Origin: Petropleomorpha daqingensis | Lineage (GTDB): Bacteria > Actinomycetota > Actinomycetes > Mycobacteriales > Geodermatophilaceae | Reading direction: 5' to 3' | DNA: 64,000 nt | NCBI RefSeq assembly: GCF_013408985.1 | Contig: NZ_JACBZT010000001.1 | Location: 2,108,001 to 2,172,000 of the forward strand | Made by a program: the position numbers and the translations under genes | Shown here: positions 28,421 through 40,509 of the stretch, piece by piece | Numbering within the stretch: position 1 is the stretch's first letter | Layout: every line of letters starts with the position of its first letter | Notes under the pieces: generated by a model | Told to the model about the DNA's origin: nothing | The model's database searches: none | The model's input: only the letters and a program-made list of their open reading frames with translations

Positions 28421-30979
28421 CTAGACCGCGACGGCGGGGAGGAGCGCGGCGACCTCGACCGCGCGGAGGTCCTCCGGCGCGACCCGGCCGGCGACGAACT
28501 CCGCGCCGGCGGCCAGCGCGCCCGCGCGCAGCTCAGGGGTGTCGATTCCGTCGGCGATCGTGGTCAGCCCGAAGGACGTCGTCGTCCGCACGATCGCGGA
28601 GAGCACCTGCAGGGCGCGCGCGTCGTCGTCCCGGCCGGCCAGCGCGCCGACCGCGACGCGGACGCCGTCGAGCGGCAGCCGGGCGAGCATCGCGAACAGG
28701 CTGTGGCCCATGCCGTAGTCCGACAGCACCAGCCGGACGCCGCGGTCGCGGACCTGCTCCAGCGCGGGCAGCAGCCCGGCGGGGGAGGTCAGCAGCGTCT
28801 CCTCGGTGAGCGTGATGGTCAGCCGGGACGGCGCCAGCCCCGAGGCCTCGAGCGCGGCGGTCAGCTCGGCGATCATGACGTCGCCGGGGACCTGGCTGGA
28901 CGGCAGCCGGAGGAACAGGCCGAGCTCGTCGTCCATGGCCGCGACCTCGCGGGTGGCCAGGCGCACGCCCCACCGCTGCACCGCCAGCAGCAGGCCCTGC
29001 TTCTCGGCGACCGCCCAGAGGTCCTGGCCGTCGATGCGGCCGCGCTCGGGGTGGATCCAGACGGCGCGGGCCTGCACGTGGGTGACCCGGCCGTCGGGCG
29101 CGGTCACGGCGTCGTAACGGAGCTCGAGCTCGCGGTTGCGCAGTGCCGCGGCGAGGTCGAGGCCGTCGTCGGTGTGGTGGGTGATCCGGTCGGCGACGCG
29201 GACGCAGCCCTTGCCGGCCTGCTTGGCCGCGCGCAGCGCGTCGTCGGCCTCGCGGAAGGCGACCTGCCCGCCGGCCGAGCTCAGCGCCGCGACGCCGACC
29301 GAGGCGCCGACGGCGAACGAGCGCTCGGCGGTGCGGTGCGGCAGCGCCAGGGCGTCGACGACGCGCGAGGCGACCTCGACCGACTCCTCCAGCGTGCCGC
29401 TGACCACGACGGCGAACTCGTCGCCGCCGAGGCGCGCGACCAGGTCGTCCTCGCGGACGAGGGCCTGCAGCCGGCGGGCCATCTCGACCAGCAGGTGGTC
29501 ACCGGCCTCGTGCCCGGCGAGGTCGTTGACCGCCTTGAACCCGTCGAGGTCGAGCACGAGCAGGCAGCGGGCGTCGTCGACGCGGCGGTCGAGCTCCCGG
29601 AACAGCAGCGCGCGGTTGGGCAGCCCGGTGAGGTGGTCGGTGTAGGCCATGCGCTCGAGCTCGCGCTCGCGGGCCAGCCGCCGGGTGACGTCGCGGAGGT
29701 AGAGCACCCGCCGGCCGCTGCCAGGATGCGCGGTCGAGGTGCCCTCGAGCTGGCGGTCGGCGACGCGGAAGCGCAGGTCGGGGCCGTTCGGGCTGCTGAG
29801 CGCGGCCCGCACGAGCGCGCGGTCCGCGGGGTCGACGAGCGCGGTGAGCTCGACGTCCTCGGCCCCGTCGGGCAGGCCGAGCATCGTGCGCGCCACGGGG
29901 GAGACGAGCAGCAGCGTCAGGTCGTCGTCCACGATGACGACGCCGTCCGAGCTGGACTCGACCAGCTCGCGGAAGTCCTCCTCGTGGCGCACGAGGTCCT
30001 CGGTGACCCGGCCGTCCTCGCGGATGCGCAGCACCAGCCGCACGGCGAGCAGGACGAAGATGCCGGCGATCGCGAGCTTGGCGCCGACGGTGAGCGGCTG
30101 GTGCTCCAGCAGGGCCGTCCCGATCGCCAGGGGCAGCGCGAGGACGGCGACGACGAGCAGCGCCAGGCCGACCGGGCTGACCACCGGGTTCGCGGCGCGG
30201 GCGCTGCGCTTGTCGAGGGTGTCGGGGGCGCGCAGCGCGGCGAGCACGGTGGTCTGCAGGGCGAGCGCGACGGCGACGTCCGAGCCCGCGGTCCACAGCC
30301 AGGACGGCGCGACGATCGCCATCGCCTCGCAGGTCGCGGCCACGGCCTGCAGCGAGATCGCGCCGACCATGGTGGTGACCGAGCGGCGCAGCGAGGCGGT
30401 CGAGACCGTGCACAGCGCCGCGCCGGTGCCGAGCATCACGGCCGTGTAACCGCCGTAGGCGAGCACGAGCGAGCGCAGGTCGTCGGGGGCGTTCACCGGG
30501 TTGGCCAGCGGTGCGCGCACCACCTCGGTGACCACCAGCAGGGCCAGGGTGACCATGGCGCCGTCGACGACCAGCGCCGACCAGCGGGTGCGGCGCACCC
30601 GGCGGGCGAGCAGGCCGGCGGAGACCAGCGGCATCGTCGCGCCGACCAGCAGCAGGACGTCGTCGACGCCGAAGCCGTCGAACTCCGGGCCGGGGAAGGA
30701 GCCGGCGAGCAGCTGGGCGACCGTGAAGAGCACGGCGGCGACGCCGAGCAGCTGCCACGGCCGGGCGACTCTGCGGGACATCGTCCGGGTGCGGTGGAAC
30801 AGGGTCCAGGCCGCGGAGGCGGCGACGCAGCCGAGGACCAGTTCGTCCCACTGCATGCCGGTGCCGTCGGGGGCGCTGAAGGGGACGGCCGCGGCGAGGC
30901 CGACCAGACCGGCGAGCACGGTCCAGCGGACGACGCGCAGATGGCTGCGCGCGTCCTCGCCGGACGGTCTGGTGCTCAC
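28421..30979 (-). CDS. Membrane diguanylate cyclase with PAS and degenerate EAL domain
   Basis: This 852-residue protein has about nine N-terminal membrane segments (1-315), a PAS domain (about 325-420), GGDEF (430-590) and an EAL-like domain (595-845). The cyclase active site is intact (GGDEF, residues 518-522), as is the allosteric I-site RxxD (REDD, five residues before GGDEF). The EAL domain has lost its signature: the position usually EAL reads QAR, the DDFG motif is SDYG, and the catalytic E in the last motif is D (IADGID). It likely makes c-di-GMP but cannot cleave it. GTG start at 30979, TAG stop. Confidence 0.92.
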   Translation of the reverse strand: MSTRPSGEDARSHLRVVRWTVLAGLVGLAAAVPFSAPDGTGMQWDELVLGCVAASAAWTLFHRTRTMSRRVARPWQLLGVAAVLFTVAQLLAGSFPGPEFDGFGVDDVLLLVGATMPLVSAGLLARRVRRTRWSALVVDGAMVTLALLVVTEVVRAPLANPVNAPDDLRSLVLAYGGYTAVMLGTGAALCTVSTASLRRSVTTMVGAISLQAVAATCEAMAIVAPSWLWTAGSDVAVALALQTTVLAALRAPDTLDKRSARAANPVVSPVGLALLVVAVLALPLAIGTALLEHQPLTVGAKLAIAGIFVLLAVRLVLRIREDGRVTEDLVRHEEDFRELVESSSDGVVIVDDDLTLLLVSPVARTMLGLPDGAEDVELTALVDPADRALVRAALSSPNGPDLRFRVADRQLEGTSTAHPGSGRRVLYLRDVTRRLARERELERMAYTDHLTGLPNRALLFRELDRRVDDARCLLVLDLDGFKAVNDLAGHEAGDHLLVEMARRLQALVREDDLVARLGGDEFAVVVSGTLEESVEVASRVVDALALPHRTAERSFAVGASVGVAALSSAGGQVAFREADDALRAAKQAGKGCVRVADRITHHTDDGLDLAAALRNRELELRYDAVTAPDGRVTHVQARAVWIHPERGRIDGQDLWAVAEKQGLLLAVQRWGVRLATREVAAMDDELGLFLRLPSSQVPGDVMIAELTAALEASGLAPSRLTITLTEETLLTSPAGLLPALEQVRDRGVRLVLSDYGMGHSLFAMLARLPLDGVRVAVGALAGRDDDARALQVLSAIVRTTTSFGLTTIADGIDTPELRAGALAAGAEFVAGRVAPEDLRAVEVAALLPAVAV

Positions 30980-32015: not shown

Positions 32016-35000
32016 GTGAAGACGTGGCTCGACGCGTGGCCGGTGTACCGGCAGCTGACCGGCTCCGACCCGCTCGGCCGCGGCAAGGCGGCGCGCAGCA
32101 AGGCCACGGAGAACGTGGTCAGCCGTACGGCCACCGCCGACCGCGTCGTCCAGAGCGTCTGCCCCTACTGCGCCGTCGGCTGCGGGCAGCGGGTGTTCGT
32201 CAAGGACGAGAAGATCGTCCAGATCGAGGGCGACCCGGACTCGCCGATCAGCCGCGGCCGGCTGTGCCCAAAGGGCAGCGCGAGCAAGCAGCTGGTCACC
32301 AGCCCGACCCGGGAGACCAAGGTCCGCTACCGCCGTCCGTACGGGACGCAGTGGGAGGACCTCGACCTCGACACGGCGATGGAGATGATCGCCGACCGCG
32401 TGCTCGACGCCCGCCGCAAGGGCTGGCAGGACGAGGTCGACGGCAAGCGCGTCAACCGCACCATGGGGATAGCGAGCCTCGGAGGGGCGACCCTCGACAA
32501 CGAGGAGAACTACCTCATGAAGAAGCTCTACACGGCCATGGGCGCGATCCAGGTCGAGAACCAGGCCCGGATATAGCACTCCTCCACGGTGCCCGGTCTG
32601 GGTACCTCGTTCGGCCGTGGTGGCGCGACCAACTTCCTGCAGGACCTGGCGAACTCCGACTGCATCGTCATCGAGGGTTCGAACATGGCCGAGTGCCACC
32701 CGGTGGGCTTCCAGTGGGTCAGCGAGGCCAAGGCGCGCGGCGCGAAGGTCGTGCACATCGACCCGCGGTTCACCCGCACCAGCGCGATCGCCGACCTGCA
32801 CGTGCCGCTGCGCGCGGGCAGTGACATCGCGTTCCTGGGCGGCCTGATCAAGTACGTCCTCGACAACGACAAGTACTTTCCGGAGTACGTCGTCGCGTAC
32901 ACCAACGCCGCGGCGATCCTGCGCGAGGACTTCCGCGACACCGAGGACCTCGACGGCCTGTTCTCCGGCTACGACCCGGAGCACAAGCACTACGACGAGT
33001 CGACGTGGGAGTACGAGGGCGACGCGACGCCGGCCGCGGCCGGTCAGCGCGGCCCCGACGAGCCGGGCGGCAAGCCCGCCCGCGACGCCCGCGAGGGCAA
33101 GCAGGCCGGTGAGCACGGCCCGGACGTCCACGAGGCGGCGCAGCACGAGGCGGCCGGCAGCGGCGGCCCCACGGTCCGGGTCAAGCCGAAGCGCGACGAG
33201 ACGCTGCAGCACCCGCGCTGCGTCTTCCAGGTGCTCAAGCGGCACTACGCCCGCTACACCCCGGAGATGGTGGCGCAGATCTGCGGCATCGACCCGCAGG
33301 CGTTCCTGCAGGTCGCCGAGTGGATCACCGCCAACAGCGGCCGGGACAGGACAACGGCGTTCGTCTACTCGGTCGGCTGGACGCAGCACTCGGTCGGCGC
33401 GCAGTACATCCGGACGGCGTCGATCCTGCAGGCGCTGCTGGGCAACATGGGCCGCCCCGGCGGCGGGATCATGGCGCTGCGCGGGCACGCCAGCATCCAG
33501 GGCTCGACCGACATCCCGACGCTGTTCAACCTGCTGCCGGGCTACCTGGTCATGCCGCACGCCCAGCAGCACATGTCGCTCGAGGAGTACTGCGCGCAGA
33601 GCAAGAACACCGCGGGCTTCTGGGGCAACATGCCCAGCTACATGGTCAGCCTGCTCAAGGCCTACTTCGGCGACGCGGCGACGCCCGAGAACGACTTCTG
33701 CTTCGACCACCTGCCGCGGCTGACCGGCGACCACAGCTCCTACCAGTCGGTCGCGCAGATGATCGAGGGCAACGTGCCCGGCTACTTCCTGGTCGGCGAG
33801 AACCCGGTGATCGGGCACGCCAACGGCCGGATGCAGCGCTTCGGGCTGGCCAACCTCGAGTGGCTCGTCGTCCGTGACCTGCAGATGATCGAGTCGGCGA
33901 CCTTCTGGAAGGACGCCCCCGAGATCGAGACCGGCGAGCTGGTCACCGACCAGATCGCGACCGAGGTCTTCTTCCTGCCCGCGGCCTCGCACGTGGAGAA
34001 GGCCGGGACGTTCACCCAGACCCAGCGGCTGCTGCAGTGGCGGCACAAGGCGGTCGAGCCGCCGGGCGACGCCCGCAGCGACCTGTGGTTCTACTTCCAC
34101 CTGGGCCGGCTGCTCAAGCAGCGGCTGGCGAACTCCACCGACCCGCGCGACCGGCCGATCCTCGACCTCGCCTGGGACTACCCGACCGAGGGCGAGACCG
34201 CCGACCCCAGCCCCGAGGCGGTGCTGCGGGAGATCAACGGTGTCGGTCCCGACGGCAAGGCGCTGGGGGCCTACACCGAGCTCAAGGACGACGGCTCGAC
34301 CTCCTGCGGCTGCTGGATCTACTGCGGCGTCTACGCCGACGAGGTCAACCAGTCCGCGCGCCGCAAGCCCGGGCGTGACCAGAACGCGGTCGCCCCCGAG
34401 TGGGGCTGGGCGTGGCCGGCCAACCGGCGCATCCTGTACAACCGCGCCTCGGCCGATCCCGACGGCAAGCCGTGGAGCGACCGCAAGAAGTACGTGTACT
34501 GGGACGACGACGCCGGCACGTGGACCGGGGACGACGTCCCGGACTTCGAGCCGGAGAAGCGGCCGGACTACAGGCCGCCGGAGGGCGCGACCGCGCAGGC
34601 CGCGATCGCCGGCACCGACCCGTTCATCATGCAGAGCGACGGCAAGGCGTGGCTGTACGCACCGGCCGGGCTCGCCGACGGGCCGATGCCGACGCACTAC
34701 GAGCCGGCCGAGTCGCCGATGTCCAACCCGCTGTACGGGCAGCAGGCCAACCCGGGCCGGGAGGAGCTCCCGGCGGCGTACAACCGCGGCAACCCGGTGG
34801 CGAGCGAGGTCTTCCCGTACGTGTTCACCACCTACCGGCTGACCGAGCACCACACCGCCGGCGGGATGAGCCGCACGCTGCCCTACCTGGCCGAGCTGCA
34901 GCCGGAGTTCTTCGTCGAGGTCTCACCGGAGCTGGCCGCCGAGCGGGGACTGGAGAACGGCGGCTGGGCCACGGTGGTCACCTCGCGGTCGGCGGTGGAG

Positions 35001-35315
35001 GCGAAGGTGCTGGTCACCGAGCGGATCCGGCCGCTGCGGCTGGACGGCCGGGTGATCCACCAGATCGGCGTCCCCTACCACTGGGGCGGGACCGGCATCT
35101 CGACCGGCGACTCCGGCAACGACCTGACCGGCGTCGTCATGGACCCGAACGTGCACATCCAGGAGTCGAAGGCGGCGACCTGCGACATCCGGCCGGGCCG
35201 CCGACCGCGCGGGCCGGAGCTGGTCGGGTTCCTCGAGGAGTACCGGCGGCGGGCCGGCGTGCCGTCGGGCACGGTGCCCGTGGGCGGCCGCGCGCCGCTG
35301 GAGGAGGACTCGTGA
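32016..35315 (+). CDS. fdnG: Formate dehydrogenase catalytic subunit, selenoprotein (Sec187 encoded by in-frame TAG)
   Basis: This 1099-residue molybdopterin oxidoreductase oxidises formate to CO2. The N-terminal [4Fe-4S] motif is C49-x2-C52-x3-C56-x27-C84. Residue 187, the active-site Sec/Cys position in ENQARI-x-HSSTVPG, is a TAG codon (32574-32576). The same frame continues with GTSFGRGGATNFLQDLA and runs without a stop to 35315. A SECIS-like hairpin sits directly downstream. A low-complexity insertion occupies about residues 328-388. There is no Tat signal, so the enzyme probably stays in the cytoplasm. GTG at 32016 gives the usual MKTW-like start. Its TGA overlaps the next gene (GTGA). 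A sequencing error is unlikely because TAG differs from both TGA and Cys codons by two bases. Confidence 0.96.
32574..32606 (+). promoter_or_regulatory. UAG selenocysteine codon and SECIS-like hairpin
   Basis: After the TAG (32574-32576) come 18 bases, then the loop GGTCT (32595-32599). The flanking stem is GGTGCCC (32588-32594) with GGGTACC (32600-32606), seven pairs including one G-U. The E. coli fdhF SECIS, as I recall it, has the same GGUCU loop and the same 18-base gap after its UGA. The hairpin should recruit SelB and tRNA-Sec so that UAG is read as Sec. Confidence 0.85.
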
Positions 35316-36379
35316 CGATCAGCTCGGCCAGCCCGGCGTGGACCGGGCGGGATCCGGAGCACCGGCTCTACGGGCCGCTGCCCGACGTGCAGGGGGAGTC
35401 GGGGTACGACGGCGACCACCCGGCGCGGGTCGGCTTCTTCACCGACACCTCGGTGTGCATCGGCTGCAAGGCCTGCGAGGTGGCGTGCAAGGAGTGGAAC
35501 ACGCTGCCGATGGACGACTCGCACGGCCGGCGCGACGCGCTCGGCCTGTCGGGGATGTCCTACGACAACACCGGGCAGCTCGGCGCCAACTCCTGGCGGC
35601 ACGTCGCGTTCATCGAGCAGTCGCGCACGGTGGACCTGCCGATGCCCACGTTCGGTCGGCCGGGGGGCGATCGAACGGGGAGCGGCCCGTCGCCGGCGGC
35701 CGGCGCCGAGCAGGACGACGCCCTGGCCCGCGCGCAGGCGTCGGTGCTCAACGCCGAGGCGCTCAGCGAGTTCGACCCGCAGACGACGCAGAGCGGCACG
35801 GACAAGCAGATCCGGTGGCTGATGAGCTCCGACGTCTGCAAGCACTGCACGCACGCCGGCTGCCTCGACGTCTGCCCGACCGGTGCGCTGGTCCGCACCG
35901 AGTTCGGCACCGTCGTCGTCCAGGGCGACATCTGCAACGGGTGCGGCTACTGCGTGCCGGCCTGCCCGTACGGCGTCATCGAGACGCGCAAGGACGACGG
36001 CCGGGCCTTCAAGTGCACGATGTGCTACGACCGGCTGACCGACGGGCTGATGCCGGCCTGCGCGACCGCGTGCCCCACGCAGTCGATCCAGTTCGGCAAC
36101 CTCGACGAGCTGCAGGCCCGGGCCGACGCGCGGCTGGCGACGCTGCAGAGCCAGGGCGTGGAGTCGGCGCGGCTGTACGGGCGCGACGAGGACGACGGCG
36201 TCGGCGGCAACGGGGCGTTCTTCCTGCTGCTCGACGAGCCGGAGGTGTACGGCCTCCCGCCCGACCCGGTGGTGACCACCCGCGACCTGCCGGCGATGTG
36301 GCGGGCCGCGGCGAAGGGTGCGGCGATGGTCGTCGGTGTGGCGGTGACCGCCGTCCTGGCGTCGTGGAGGCGGAAGTGA
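35312..36379 (+). CDS. Formate dehydrogenase iron-sulfur subunit (four [4Fe-4S] clusters)
   Basis: This 355-residue electron-transfer subunit has four cysteine sets: SVCIGCKACEVACKEW (C49, C52, C55, C59), VCKHCTHAGCLDVCPTGAL, DICNGCGYCVPACPYGV and FKCTMCYDRL...PACATACPTQS. It relays electrons from the catalytic subunit to the membrane. A proline/glycine-rich insertion follows the first cluster. The C-terminus ends in one membrane helix (AAMVVGVAVTAVLASW), like FdnH-type subunits. GTG 35312 and stop 36379 both overlap neighbours as GTGA, so all three subunits are co-translated. Confidence 0.94.
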   Translation: MTISSASPAWTGRDPEHRLYGPLPDVQGESGYDGDHPARVGFFTDTSVCIGCKACEVACKEWNTLPMDDSHGRRDALGLSGMSYDNTGQLGANSWRHVAFIEQSRTVDLPMPTFGRPGGDRTGSGPSPAAGAEQDDALARAQASVLNAEALSEFDPQTTQSGTDKQIRWLMSSDVCKHCTHAGCLDVCPTGALVRTEFGTVVVQGDICNGCGYCVPACPYGVIETRKDDGRAFKCTMCYDRLTDGLMPACATACPTQSIQFGNLDELQARADARLATLQSQGVESARLYGRDEDDGVGGNGAFFLLLDEPEVYGLPPDPVVTTRDLPAMWRAAAKGAAMVVGVAVTAVLASWRRK

Positions 36380-37389
36380 CCGCGGCGGGCGGCTGGCGGC
36401 AGGCGGACCGCGGCCCGCGGCTGAAGCGGAAGAAGCGTGGCGGCGGGGGCGGCAGCCGCGAGCTGTCGATGGTGGACGACGTCGAGTTCACCTCGTACTA
36501 CGGCCGCCCGATCATCAAGCCGCCGGTGTGGAAGAGCCCGGAGGTGCCGCTCTACCTGTTCCTCGGCGGCGCGGCCGGGTCGTCGGCGATCCTGTCGGCG
36601 CTGGGGGAGTTCACGAAGCGGCCGACGCTGGCCAAGGCGGCGCAGATCCTCGCCGGGGGCGGCGCGCTGGGCTCGGTCGGGTTGCTCATCGTCGACCTGG
36701 GCCGGCCGGAGCGGTTCCTGCACATGCTGCGGGTGTTCAAGCCGACGTCGCCGCTGTCGGTCGGGTCGTACATCCTCTCGCCGTTCAGCGCCCTCACGGT
36801 CGGGGCGGCGGGGCTGCACGTGCTGGGCTGGTTCCCGCGACTGCGCAAGCTGGCCGCCGTCGGGGCCGGGGCGCTCGGGGGGCCGATGACGACGTACACG
36901 GCGGTGCTGATCGCGAACACCGCCGTCCCGTCGTGGCACGCGGCGGGGGAGCAGCTGCCGTTCGTCTTCGCCGGGTCGGGGATGGCCGCGGGCGGGGGCA
37001 TGACGATGGCGTTCTCACCGGTCGCCGAGGCCGGGCCGGCGCGCAAGATGGCGGTGGCCGGCGCGGCGATCGAGCTGGCCGCGATGCACCAGGTGGAGAA
37101 CGGCCACGGGATCGTCAGCGAGCCCTACCACGAGGGCCGGCCGGGGCTGCTGCTGAAGATCGCCAAGGCGTGCACCGTCTCCGGCGCGGCGCTCACCCTG
37201 CTGACCGGCCGCAAGCGGGTCGGGGCGGTGCTGGCCGGCGCGCTGCTGGCGGCGGGGTCGGCGCTCACCCGGTTCGGCGTCTTCGAGGCCGGCATGGTCA
37301 GCGCCAAGGACCCGAAGTACACCGTCGTCCCTCAGCGTGAGCGGCTGGCCGCGCGGCAGAACGGGCACGCGCCGACCGTCACCCGCTGA
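36376..37389 (+). CDS. nrfD: NrfD/PsrC-type membrane subunit of formate dehydrogenase
   Basis: This 337-residue polytopic membrane protein starts with a basic cytosolic leader (RLKRKKRGGGG) and an amphipathic stretch (TSYYGRPIIKPPVWK). About eight hydrophobic segments follow (PLYLFLGGAAGSSAILSAL; GGPMTTYTAVLIANTAVPSW). PsrC/NrfD subunits pass electrons from an Fe-S partner to menaquinone, so this replaces the cytochrome b subunit of FdnGHI. Quinone is plausible here because menB is in the window. GTG 36376 overlaps the beta stop by 4 bases. Confidence 0.9.
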   Translation: MTAAGGWRQADRGPRLKRKKRGGGGGSRELSMVDDVEFTSYYGRPIIKPPVWKSPEVPLYLFLGGAAGSSAILSALGEFTKRPTLAKAAQILAGGGALGSVGLLIVDLGRPERFLHMLRVFKPTSPLSVGSYILSPFSALTVGAAGLHVLGWFPRLRKLAAVGAGALGGPMTTYTAVLIANTAVPSWHAAGEQLPFVFAGSGMAAGGGMTMAFSPVAEAGPARKMAVAGAAIELAAMHQVENGHGIVSEPYHEGRPGLLLKIAKACTVSGAALTLLTGRKRVGAVLAGALLAAGSALTRFGVFEAGMVSAKDPKYTVVPQRERLAARQNGHAPTVTR

Positions 37390-39282: not shown

Positions 39283-39729
39283 GTGAGCGCCGTGTCCATC
39301 GGCGGCGATCAGGGGGAGGGCGCAGAGCCGCTCCGGGTGCTGGTCGTCGGCGCCGATCCGGACAAGCGCCGCCGTCTGGCGCGGCTGCTGGCCGGGGTCG
39401 CGGGCGTCGAGGTGGTGGGCTGGCTGGAGTCCTCCGAGGCCCTCGAGGTGCTGGGGTACGACGACGACGAGCTGGCGATCGTCAGCGCCGAACCGGCCCT
39501 GCGCCGGCCGAAGCTCTCCGCCCGGCAGCGGGACGTCCTGATCGCCTACGCCGCCGGCAACCAGCTGATGCCCGCGGTCGCGCGCTCGCTGGGGATGGAC
39601 CAGGAGACGCTCAAGACGCACCTGCGCCGGATCCGGGTCAAGTACCGCGAGGTCGGCCGGCCGGCGCCCACCCGGCGCGATCTCTACGTGCGGGCGGTCG
39701 AGGACGGGCTGCTGCCGCCGCCGTCCTGA
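39283..39729 (+). CDS. LuxR-type HTH protein (paralogue 1)
   Basis: This 148-residue protein has an N-terminal segment resembling a shortened receiver (LRVLVVGADPDKRRRLARLL) without a clear phosphorylation pocket. The C-terminal HTH is RPKLSARQRDVLIAYAAGN, then QETLKTHLRRIRVKYREVGR. Its last 40 residues nearly match the protein at 40552-40902 (PAPTRRDLYVRAVEDGL). The 3' end overlaps the convergent TetR gene by 46 bases. GTG 39283 or 39292 could start it. Confidence 0.82.
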   Translation: MSAVSIGGDQGEGAEPLRVLVVGADPDKRRRLARLLAGVAGVEVVGWLESSEALEVLGYDDDELAIVSAEPALRRPKLSARQRDVLIAYAAGNQLMPAVARSLGMDQETLKTHLRRIRVKYREVGRPAPTRRDLYVRAVEDGLLPPPS

Positions 39730-40442
39730 GGCGTCGTGATGGTCCGGAACAGGATCTCCACGGTCGTGCCGAACAGGTCCCACGACGTCTGCGCCTCGGG
39801 CGCGTCCGGTCGTTCCGACAGCGGCTTGACCGGCACCCTCTCCGGCTCGATCGCCCAGCGCAGGTTGAGGCCCTGCACCAGCGCGGTGATCACGACGGCG
39901 AAGCTGTCGACGGTGAACGGCGGCTGCATCTGACGGCCCGCGGCGGCCAGGCAGGCCTCGAGCAGCGGCACCACCTGATCGGTCACCCAGTCGAAGTTCT
40001 GCCGGAGCGAGGCGTGCACCTGCTCGTCCTGGCTGTGCTTCGACCACAGCGCCTGCCACAGCTGGGCGTAGGGGTCGGCCCGCACGCTCTCGAAGTTGCC
40101 CCGCGCGGCGAGGTGCAGCACGGTCGCGGGCTCCTGGCCGCTGCGCAGCGCGGCCGTGATGAAGGCGACCGCCTCCGCGGTGCTCTCGATGCGCACCGGG
40201 TCGAGCACGTACGCCACGAGGTCGCGGTGGTAGGCCTCGAGGGTGGGCCACTGGTGGAAGAACGCCCCCGTCGTCCGGCCGACGCGCTCCACGACCGCCC
40301 GCGCCGTCACCTGGCTGAGCACGTCGCCGACGGGTTGCTCCCGCAGCAGGGCCGCCCCGGCCTCCAGCAGGGTCGCCCGCGTCTCGGCGCTGGCCTCGGC
40401 CTTGCGGCCGACCGGCGGTCGGGCCGCGGCGTCGTCGCTCAT
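39684..40442 (-). CDS. TetR/AcrR-family regulator between two LuxR-type paralogues
   Basis: This is a 252-residue regulator. The N-terminal HTH (ARAVVERVGRTTGAFFHQWPTLEAYHR) lies at about 55-80; the remainder is a helical ligand domain with LHLAARGNFESVRADPYAQ. ATG at 40442 is preferred; GTG at 40460 adds six residues. The 3' end overlaps the upstream paralogue antisense, and its terminal codons run through AVEDGLLPPP of that gene. An 18-bp palindrome lies 68-85 bases upstream and is the likely operator. Confidence 0.88.
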   Translation of the reverse strand: MSDDAAARPPVGRKAEASAETRATLLEAGAALLREQPVGDVLSQVTARAVVERVGRTTGAFFHQWPTLEAYHRDLVAYVLDPVRIESTAEAVAFITAALRSGQEPATVLHLAARGNFESVRADPYAQLWQALWSKHSQDEQVHASLRQNFDWVTDQVVPLLEACLAAAGRQMQPPFTVDSFAVVITALVQGLNLRWAIEPERVPVKPLSERPDAPEAQTSWDLFGTTVEILFRTITTPQDGGGSSPSSTART

Positions 40443-40509
40443 GGAGGAACTCTCGCCCACCCGGCCGCGCTTGACGACGAGACGTGACGGCTGTCACGAT
40501 CGGTCGCAC

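Follow-up and report, generated by a model that had tools for sequence, protein, structure and literature searches.

The catalytic formate dehydrogenase gene (fdhA) of Petropleomorpha daqingensis, located within a 64,000-nucleotide stretch of the genome (the window), very probably encodes a selenoenzyme in which UAG specifies the catalytic selenocysteine; judged from the DNA sequence, we put the probability of this reading at about 0.96. The UAG is almost certainly read as selenocysteine, because a matching tRNA and a directing hairpin are both present. As UAG remains an ordinary stop elsewhere, the recoding appears to be context-dependent, rather than a reassignment or gene decay. The features of the locus are as follows.

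32016..35315, forward strand: fdhA, encoding the catalytic (molybdopterin) subunit of formate dehydrogenase; 1,099 residues, of which residue 187 is the predicted selenocysteine; NF041513 matches both before and after the TAG.
32574..32576, forward strand: in-frame TAG, predicted to be read as selenocysteine; the family has TAG at this codon, where other Actinomycetota have TGA or TGC.
32588..32606, forward strand: SECIS hairpin of bacterial type, 11 nt downstream of the TAG, with the loop GGTCT on the stem GGTGCCC/GGGTACC.
35312..36379, forward strand: fdhB, Fe-S (4Fe-4S dicluster) subunit, matching PF13247 and other Fer4 families; its start overlaps the fdhA stop.
36469..37389, forward strand: probable membrane subunit of the fdhA operon, an open frame assigned from sequence reading only.

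The window sequence directly confirmed the in-frame TAG noted earlier, preceded by ENQARI and followed by HSSTVPG. With TAG translated as selenocysteine, the frame contains no further stop and no frameshift across its 1,099 residues, and the actinobacterial formate dehydrogenase profile NF041513 (NCBIfam) matches from profile positions 2 to 185 upstream of the TAG and from 192 to 1067 downstream, in agreement with the earlier claim of an intact downstream frame showing no decay. The read-through protein carries PF04879, PF00384 and PF01568, the molybdopterin oxidoreductase domains expected for formate dehydrogenase. The gene ends in TGA (35313-35315), which, as had been proposed, overlaps the next subunit gene at its GTG start (35312). 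The formate dehydrogenase is thus intact except for a stop codon at its catalytic Sec/Cys site.

The SECIS hairpin, absent from the earlier account, is present and specific. Its 7 bp stem is capped by a GGUCU loop in the RNA, and both loop and spacing agree with those of the E. coli fdhF SECIS. Pairing is retained in 95.2% of cells across 79 TAG and TGA genes (59 distinct rows). The covariation score was reached by none of 500 shuffles and exceeds that of all slid versions, the signal being confined to two pairs since the hairpin sits within conserved coding sequence; pair 4 covaries through CG, UG, UA and GU. Spacing and loop are identical in TAG and TGA genes, whereas stem and loop are both broken in the two genes with TGC (Cys). 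A single hairpin form is common to the TAG and TGA genes, which indicates that the codon changed while the hairpin did not. When a hairpin grammar was scanned across 1,375 stop triplets on both strands of the window, the fdhA TAG was the sole fit.

The genome (one contig, 5.38 Mb, 99.93% complete) was searched for the decoding machinery, and the single tRNA-Sec detected matches the full-length Rfam model at 66.9 bits, the next match being a tRNA-Ser. Its anticodon is CUA, and the genome holds no UCA copy. Genes for selD (388 bits), selA (413 bits) and selB (295 bits), each above its curated cut-off, adjoin the tRNA-Sec within the same 5 kb, and the C-terminal winged-helix domain of SelB is present. 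Both computational checks suggested by the earlier note, the anticodon and the sel genes, therefore support its designation of fdhA as a UAG-Sec gene, as does the occurrence of the same codon in relatives. In the covariance-model alignment the tRNA (L001:1501-1592) has mismatches at acceptor-branch positions 8-9 and may have fewer than the usual 8 acceptor pairs; these ends are also found in the UCA tRNAs of the sister genera. Two CUA tRNA-Sec genes per genome were seen in G110 (L136:7088-7183 and L137:9044-9139, 59 kb apart on the same contig), G038 (L138, L139) and G097.

In the mechanism we propose, the tRNA-Sec with its CUA anticodon would be charged with serine, which SelA would convert to selenocysteine on the tRNA using selenophosphate from SelD. 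SelB would carry the resulting Sec-tRNA and dock on the SECIS hairpin located 11 nt downstream, so that Sec-tRNA is delivered to that UAG only and the full-length protein is produced, while the other UAGs of the genome would terminate normally. General reassignment of UAG to a sense codon in this lineage, which a native tRNA-Sec reading UAG might suggest, is very unlikely. Within the window, a GGDEF-EAL gene (28421-30979, reverse strand) and a TetR-type gene (39684-40460, reverse strand) both end in TAG without a SECIS. Across the family loci TAG terminates about 10% of genes, compared with 13% in other Actinomycetota, which, with a rough gene caller and overlapping neighbourhoods, amounts to no usable difference with respect to TAG avoidance.

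The codon at the selenocysteine site was compared across 80 related formate dehydrogenase loci obtained from a scan of named genomes. All 17 from Geodermatophilaceae (Blastococcus, Geodermatophilus, Modestobacter, Goekera, Klenkia and one more) have TAG, giving 18 with the gene studied here. In the remaining 63, all from other Actinomycetota, the codon is TGA in 61 and TGC in two, in keeping with the earlier statement that known formate dehydrogenases have Sec or Cys at this position. In a wider survey, formate dehydrogenase was present in 103 of 115 family genomes; some partial matches stop short of residue 187, and every match spanning it carries exactly one TAG and no TGA. Within the genera with UCA tRNA-Sec, the formate dehydrogenase of g8 carries TGA with GGTCT downstream. 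A formate dehydrogenase fragment in a UCA genus (L172, G072:C162:5050-5331), matching query 19-112 in a short frame, contains one TAG distant from the Sec site and resembles a remnant.

These data bear on whether fdhA is a pseudogene, or its TAG a sequencing error, with the product limited to the 908-residue downstream part or lacking altogether. Standard gene callers would be expected to divide the gene at the TAG, as the earlier note anticipated, and a split call would fit such an account. However, TAG recurs in every site-spanning family match and in the 17 named loci, which neither chance nor an isolated error would explain; no second stop or frameshift interrupts the 1,099 codons, the CUA tRNA-Sec matches the codon and the SECIS is conserved. 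We consider this explanation extremely improbable. Equally improbable is decoding as pyrrolysine by a tRNA-Pyl, the label that ARAGORN gives the CUA tRNA on its anticodon. The gene matches tRNA-Sec over its full length, no other Rfam family being above threshold there, and does not fit the tRNA-Pyl structure. It adjoins selA, selB and selD, and only 9-14 of 92 positions distinguish it from the UCA tRNA-Sec of the sister genera; moreover, all homologues have Sec or Cys at the site. The name 'tRNA-Pyl' was given by ARAGORN both to the CUA tRNA-Sec studied here (L001:1501-1596) and at 22 of 30 family tRNA loci examined, and is likely to lead to erroneous annotation of pyrrolysine.

The predicted reading of UAG as selenocysteine is not confined to fdhA in this genome. 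A UGSC-family gene (G000:C1:2972211-2972639) has TAG at the Sec position followed by a hairpin at the same offset with the loop AGTGT; more than one selenoprotein gene with TAG is therefore present, a count that is a minimum. TAG-containing UGSC genes have already been reported in Geodermatophilaceae (PMC5330540). None of the eight AhpC-type matches in the genome contains an internal stop. In a genome of genus g10 (G089; L184, L190, L193), TGC (Cys) is present in two UGSC genes and TAG in a third, so that Sec and Cys forms coexist.

The distribution of anticodons was used to locate the codon switch within the family. A CUA tRNA-Sec was found in 104 of the 115 family genomes, with a nearly invariant 33-nt segment, and in all 95 good-quality genomes outside three deeper-branching genera (g6, g7 and g8). 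In these three, all seven tRNA-Sec genes examined are UCA. Two of the 9-14 positions at which they differ from the P. daqingensis tRNA-Sec are the anticodon changes, and among the other differences is one from T-A to C-G, in the pair flanking the loop region. The SelB tree gives the UAG clade support of 100/100 and places g6 as its sister (99/98), with g7 and g8 outside. The tree fits a single switch from UGA to UAG after g6 split off, in which UGA/UCA would have given way to UAG/CUA, codon and anticodon together, on the stem of the crown Geodermatophilaceae. Two changes are needed from TGA to TAG, and two from UCA to CUA. We infer that the route may have passed through a UAA codon and a UUA anticodon able to wobble to UAG; no such intermediate was seen among the family genomes surveyed.

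One complete genome (G060, genus g4) may use two selenocysteine codons. It has a CUA tRNA-Sec beside selB, and TAG in its formate dehydrogenase and UGSC genes, together with a second tRNA-Sec with a UCA anticodon that scores 81.8 bits, the highest in the family. Two features of its contig C17 are relevant.

L134:1169-1263, reverse strand: UCA tRNA-Sec.
L134:1579-2157, forward strand: AhpD-like gene with an in-frame TGA and a SECIS-like hairpin.

The UCA tRNA-Sec lies 0.3 kb from this CMD/AhpD-like gene, in which the TGA takes the place of the second Cys in a CxxC-type motif, CFYU. In AhpD-like relatives from other Actinomycetota, TGA occupies the same position (CHYU), and a GGTCT hairpin stands at the usual offset in three of the four examined. 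The hairpin of the G060 gene has 6 pairs, shorter than usual, with loop AGTTT and offset 16, and is the sole grammar match in the 69 kb contig; the start of the gene is without a clear ribosome site. G+C falls to about 60% in the cassette stretch compared with over 70%, and the flanking frames read like transposases. Contamination was considered as a source of contig C17 and rejected, because the contig holds the genome's only copy of RNase D, 89% identical to that of a same-genus genome. We read the cassette as a probable imported UGA selenoprotein gene accompanied by its own UCA tRNA-Sec. We give an even chance to the further proposal that G060 decodes selenocysteine by two codons, UAG in the native formate dehydrogenase and UGSC genes through the ancestral CUA tRNA, and UGA in the acquired AhpD-like gene through the UCA tRNA, the one SelB found presumably serving both. 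In another actinobacterial genome (G233; L236:2878-2970), a UCA tRNA-Sec lies about 1 kb from a TGA-containing AhpD-like gene, and the pairing may recur.

The P. daqingensis fdhA is a further case of a known system. As the earlier note stated, UAG-coded selenocysteine was reported for Geodermatophilus and Blastococcus in 2016 (Mukai et al.; cited in PMC5330540), and a 2017 extension described it in three family genomes, adding an AhpC case in B. saxobsidens (PMC5330540). That AhpC gene has no counterpart among the eight AhpC-type matches found here. The present genome resembles those of Geodermatophilus and Blastococcus in its family, its CUA tRNA-Sec, the TAG in the formate dehydrogenase and UGSC genes and the SECIS after the codon, but it belongs to another genus (g1, by our grouping) and its UAG-Sec genes are predicted from sequence, while the 2016 work reportedly confirmed the decoding experimentally in the two best-known genera. 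Compared with the canonical UGA-Sec formate dehydrogenases of Actinomycetota and with E. coli fdhF, the protein site, sel genes, SECIS position and GGUCU loop are alike; the difference is that UAG and CUA replace UGA and UCA. The pyrrolysine system is similar in that a CUA tRNA reads UAG in a subset of genes, but differs in its tRNA family, in the sel neighbourhood seen here and in the site chemistry, which here is that of selenocysteine.

Further literature repeats the UAG-Sec principle without naming Geodermatophilaceae, and a 2026 review makes no mention of the family. A literature search, with most subscription papers outside its reach, returned no report of a family-wide boundary or of a two-codon genome. 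The present analysis adds to the 2016 and 2017 reports the family-wide extent of the system, the position of the switch and the G060 two-codon candidate.

fdhA provides a clean, fully equipped case in which a stop codon other than UGA is predicted to code for selenocysteine, and the gene is one that standard annotation would divide. Limits are set on the switch by the family survey, with UCA sister genera on one side and the 104 CUA genomes on the other, and both the switch itself and the cost of later importing UGA selenoproteins become directly testable. If the two-codon reading of G060 is true, imported selenoprotein genes would have to bring their own tRNA into a lineage whose selenocysteine codon has changed.
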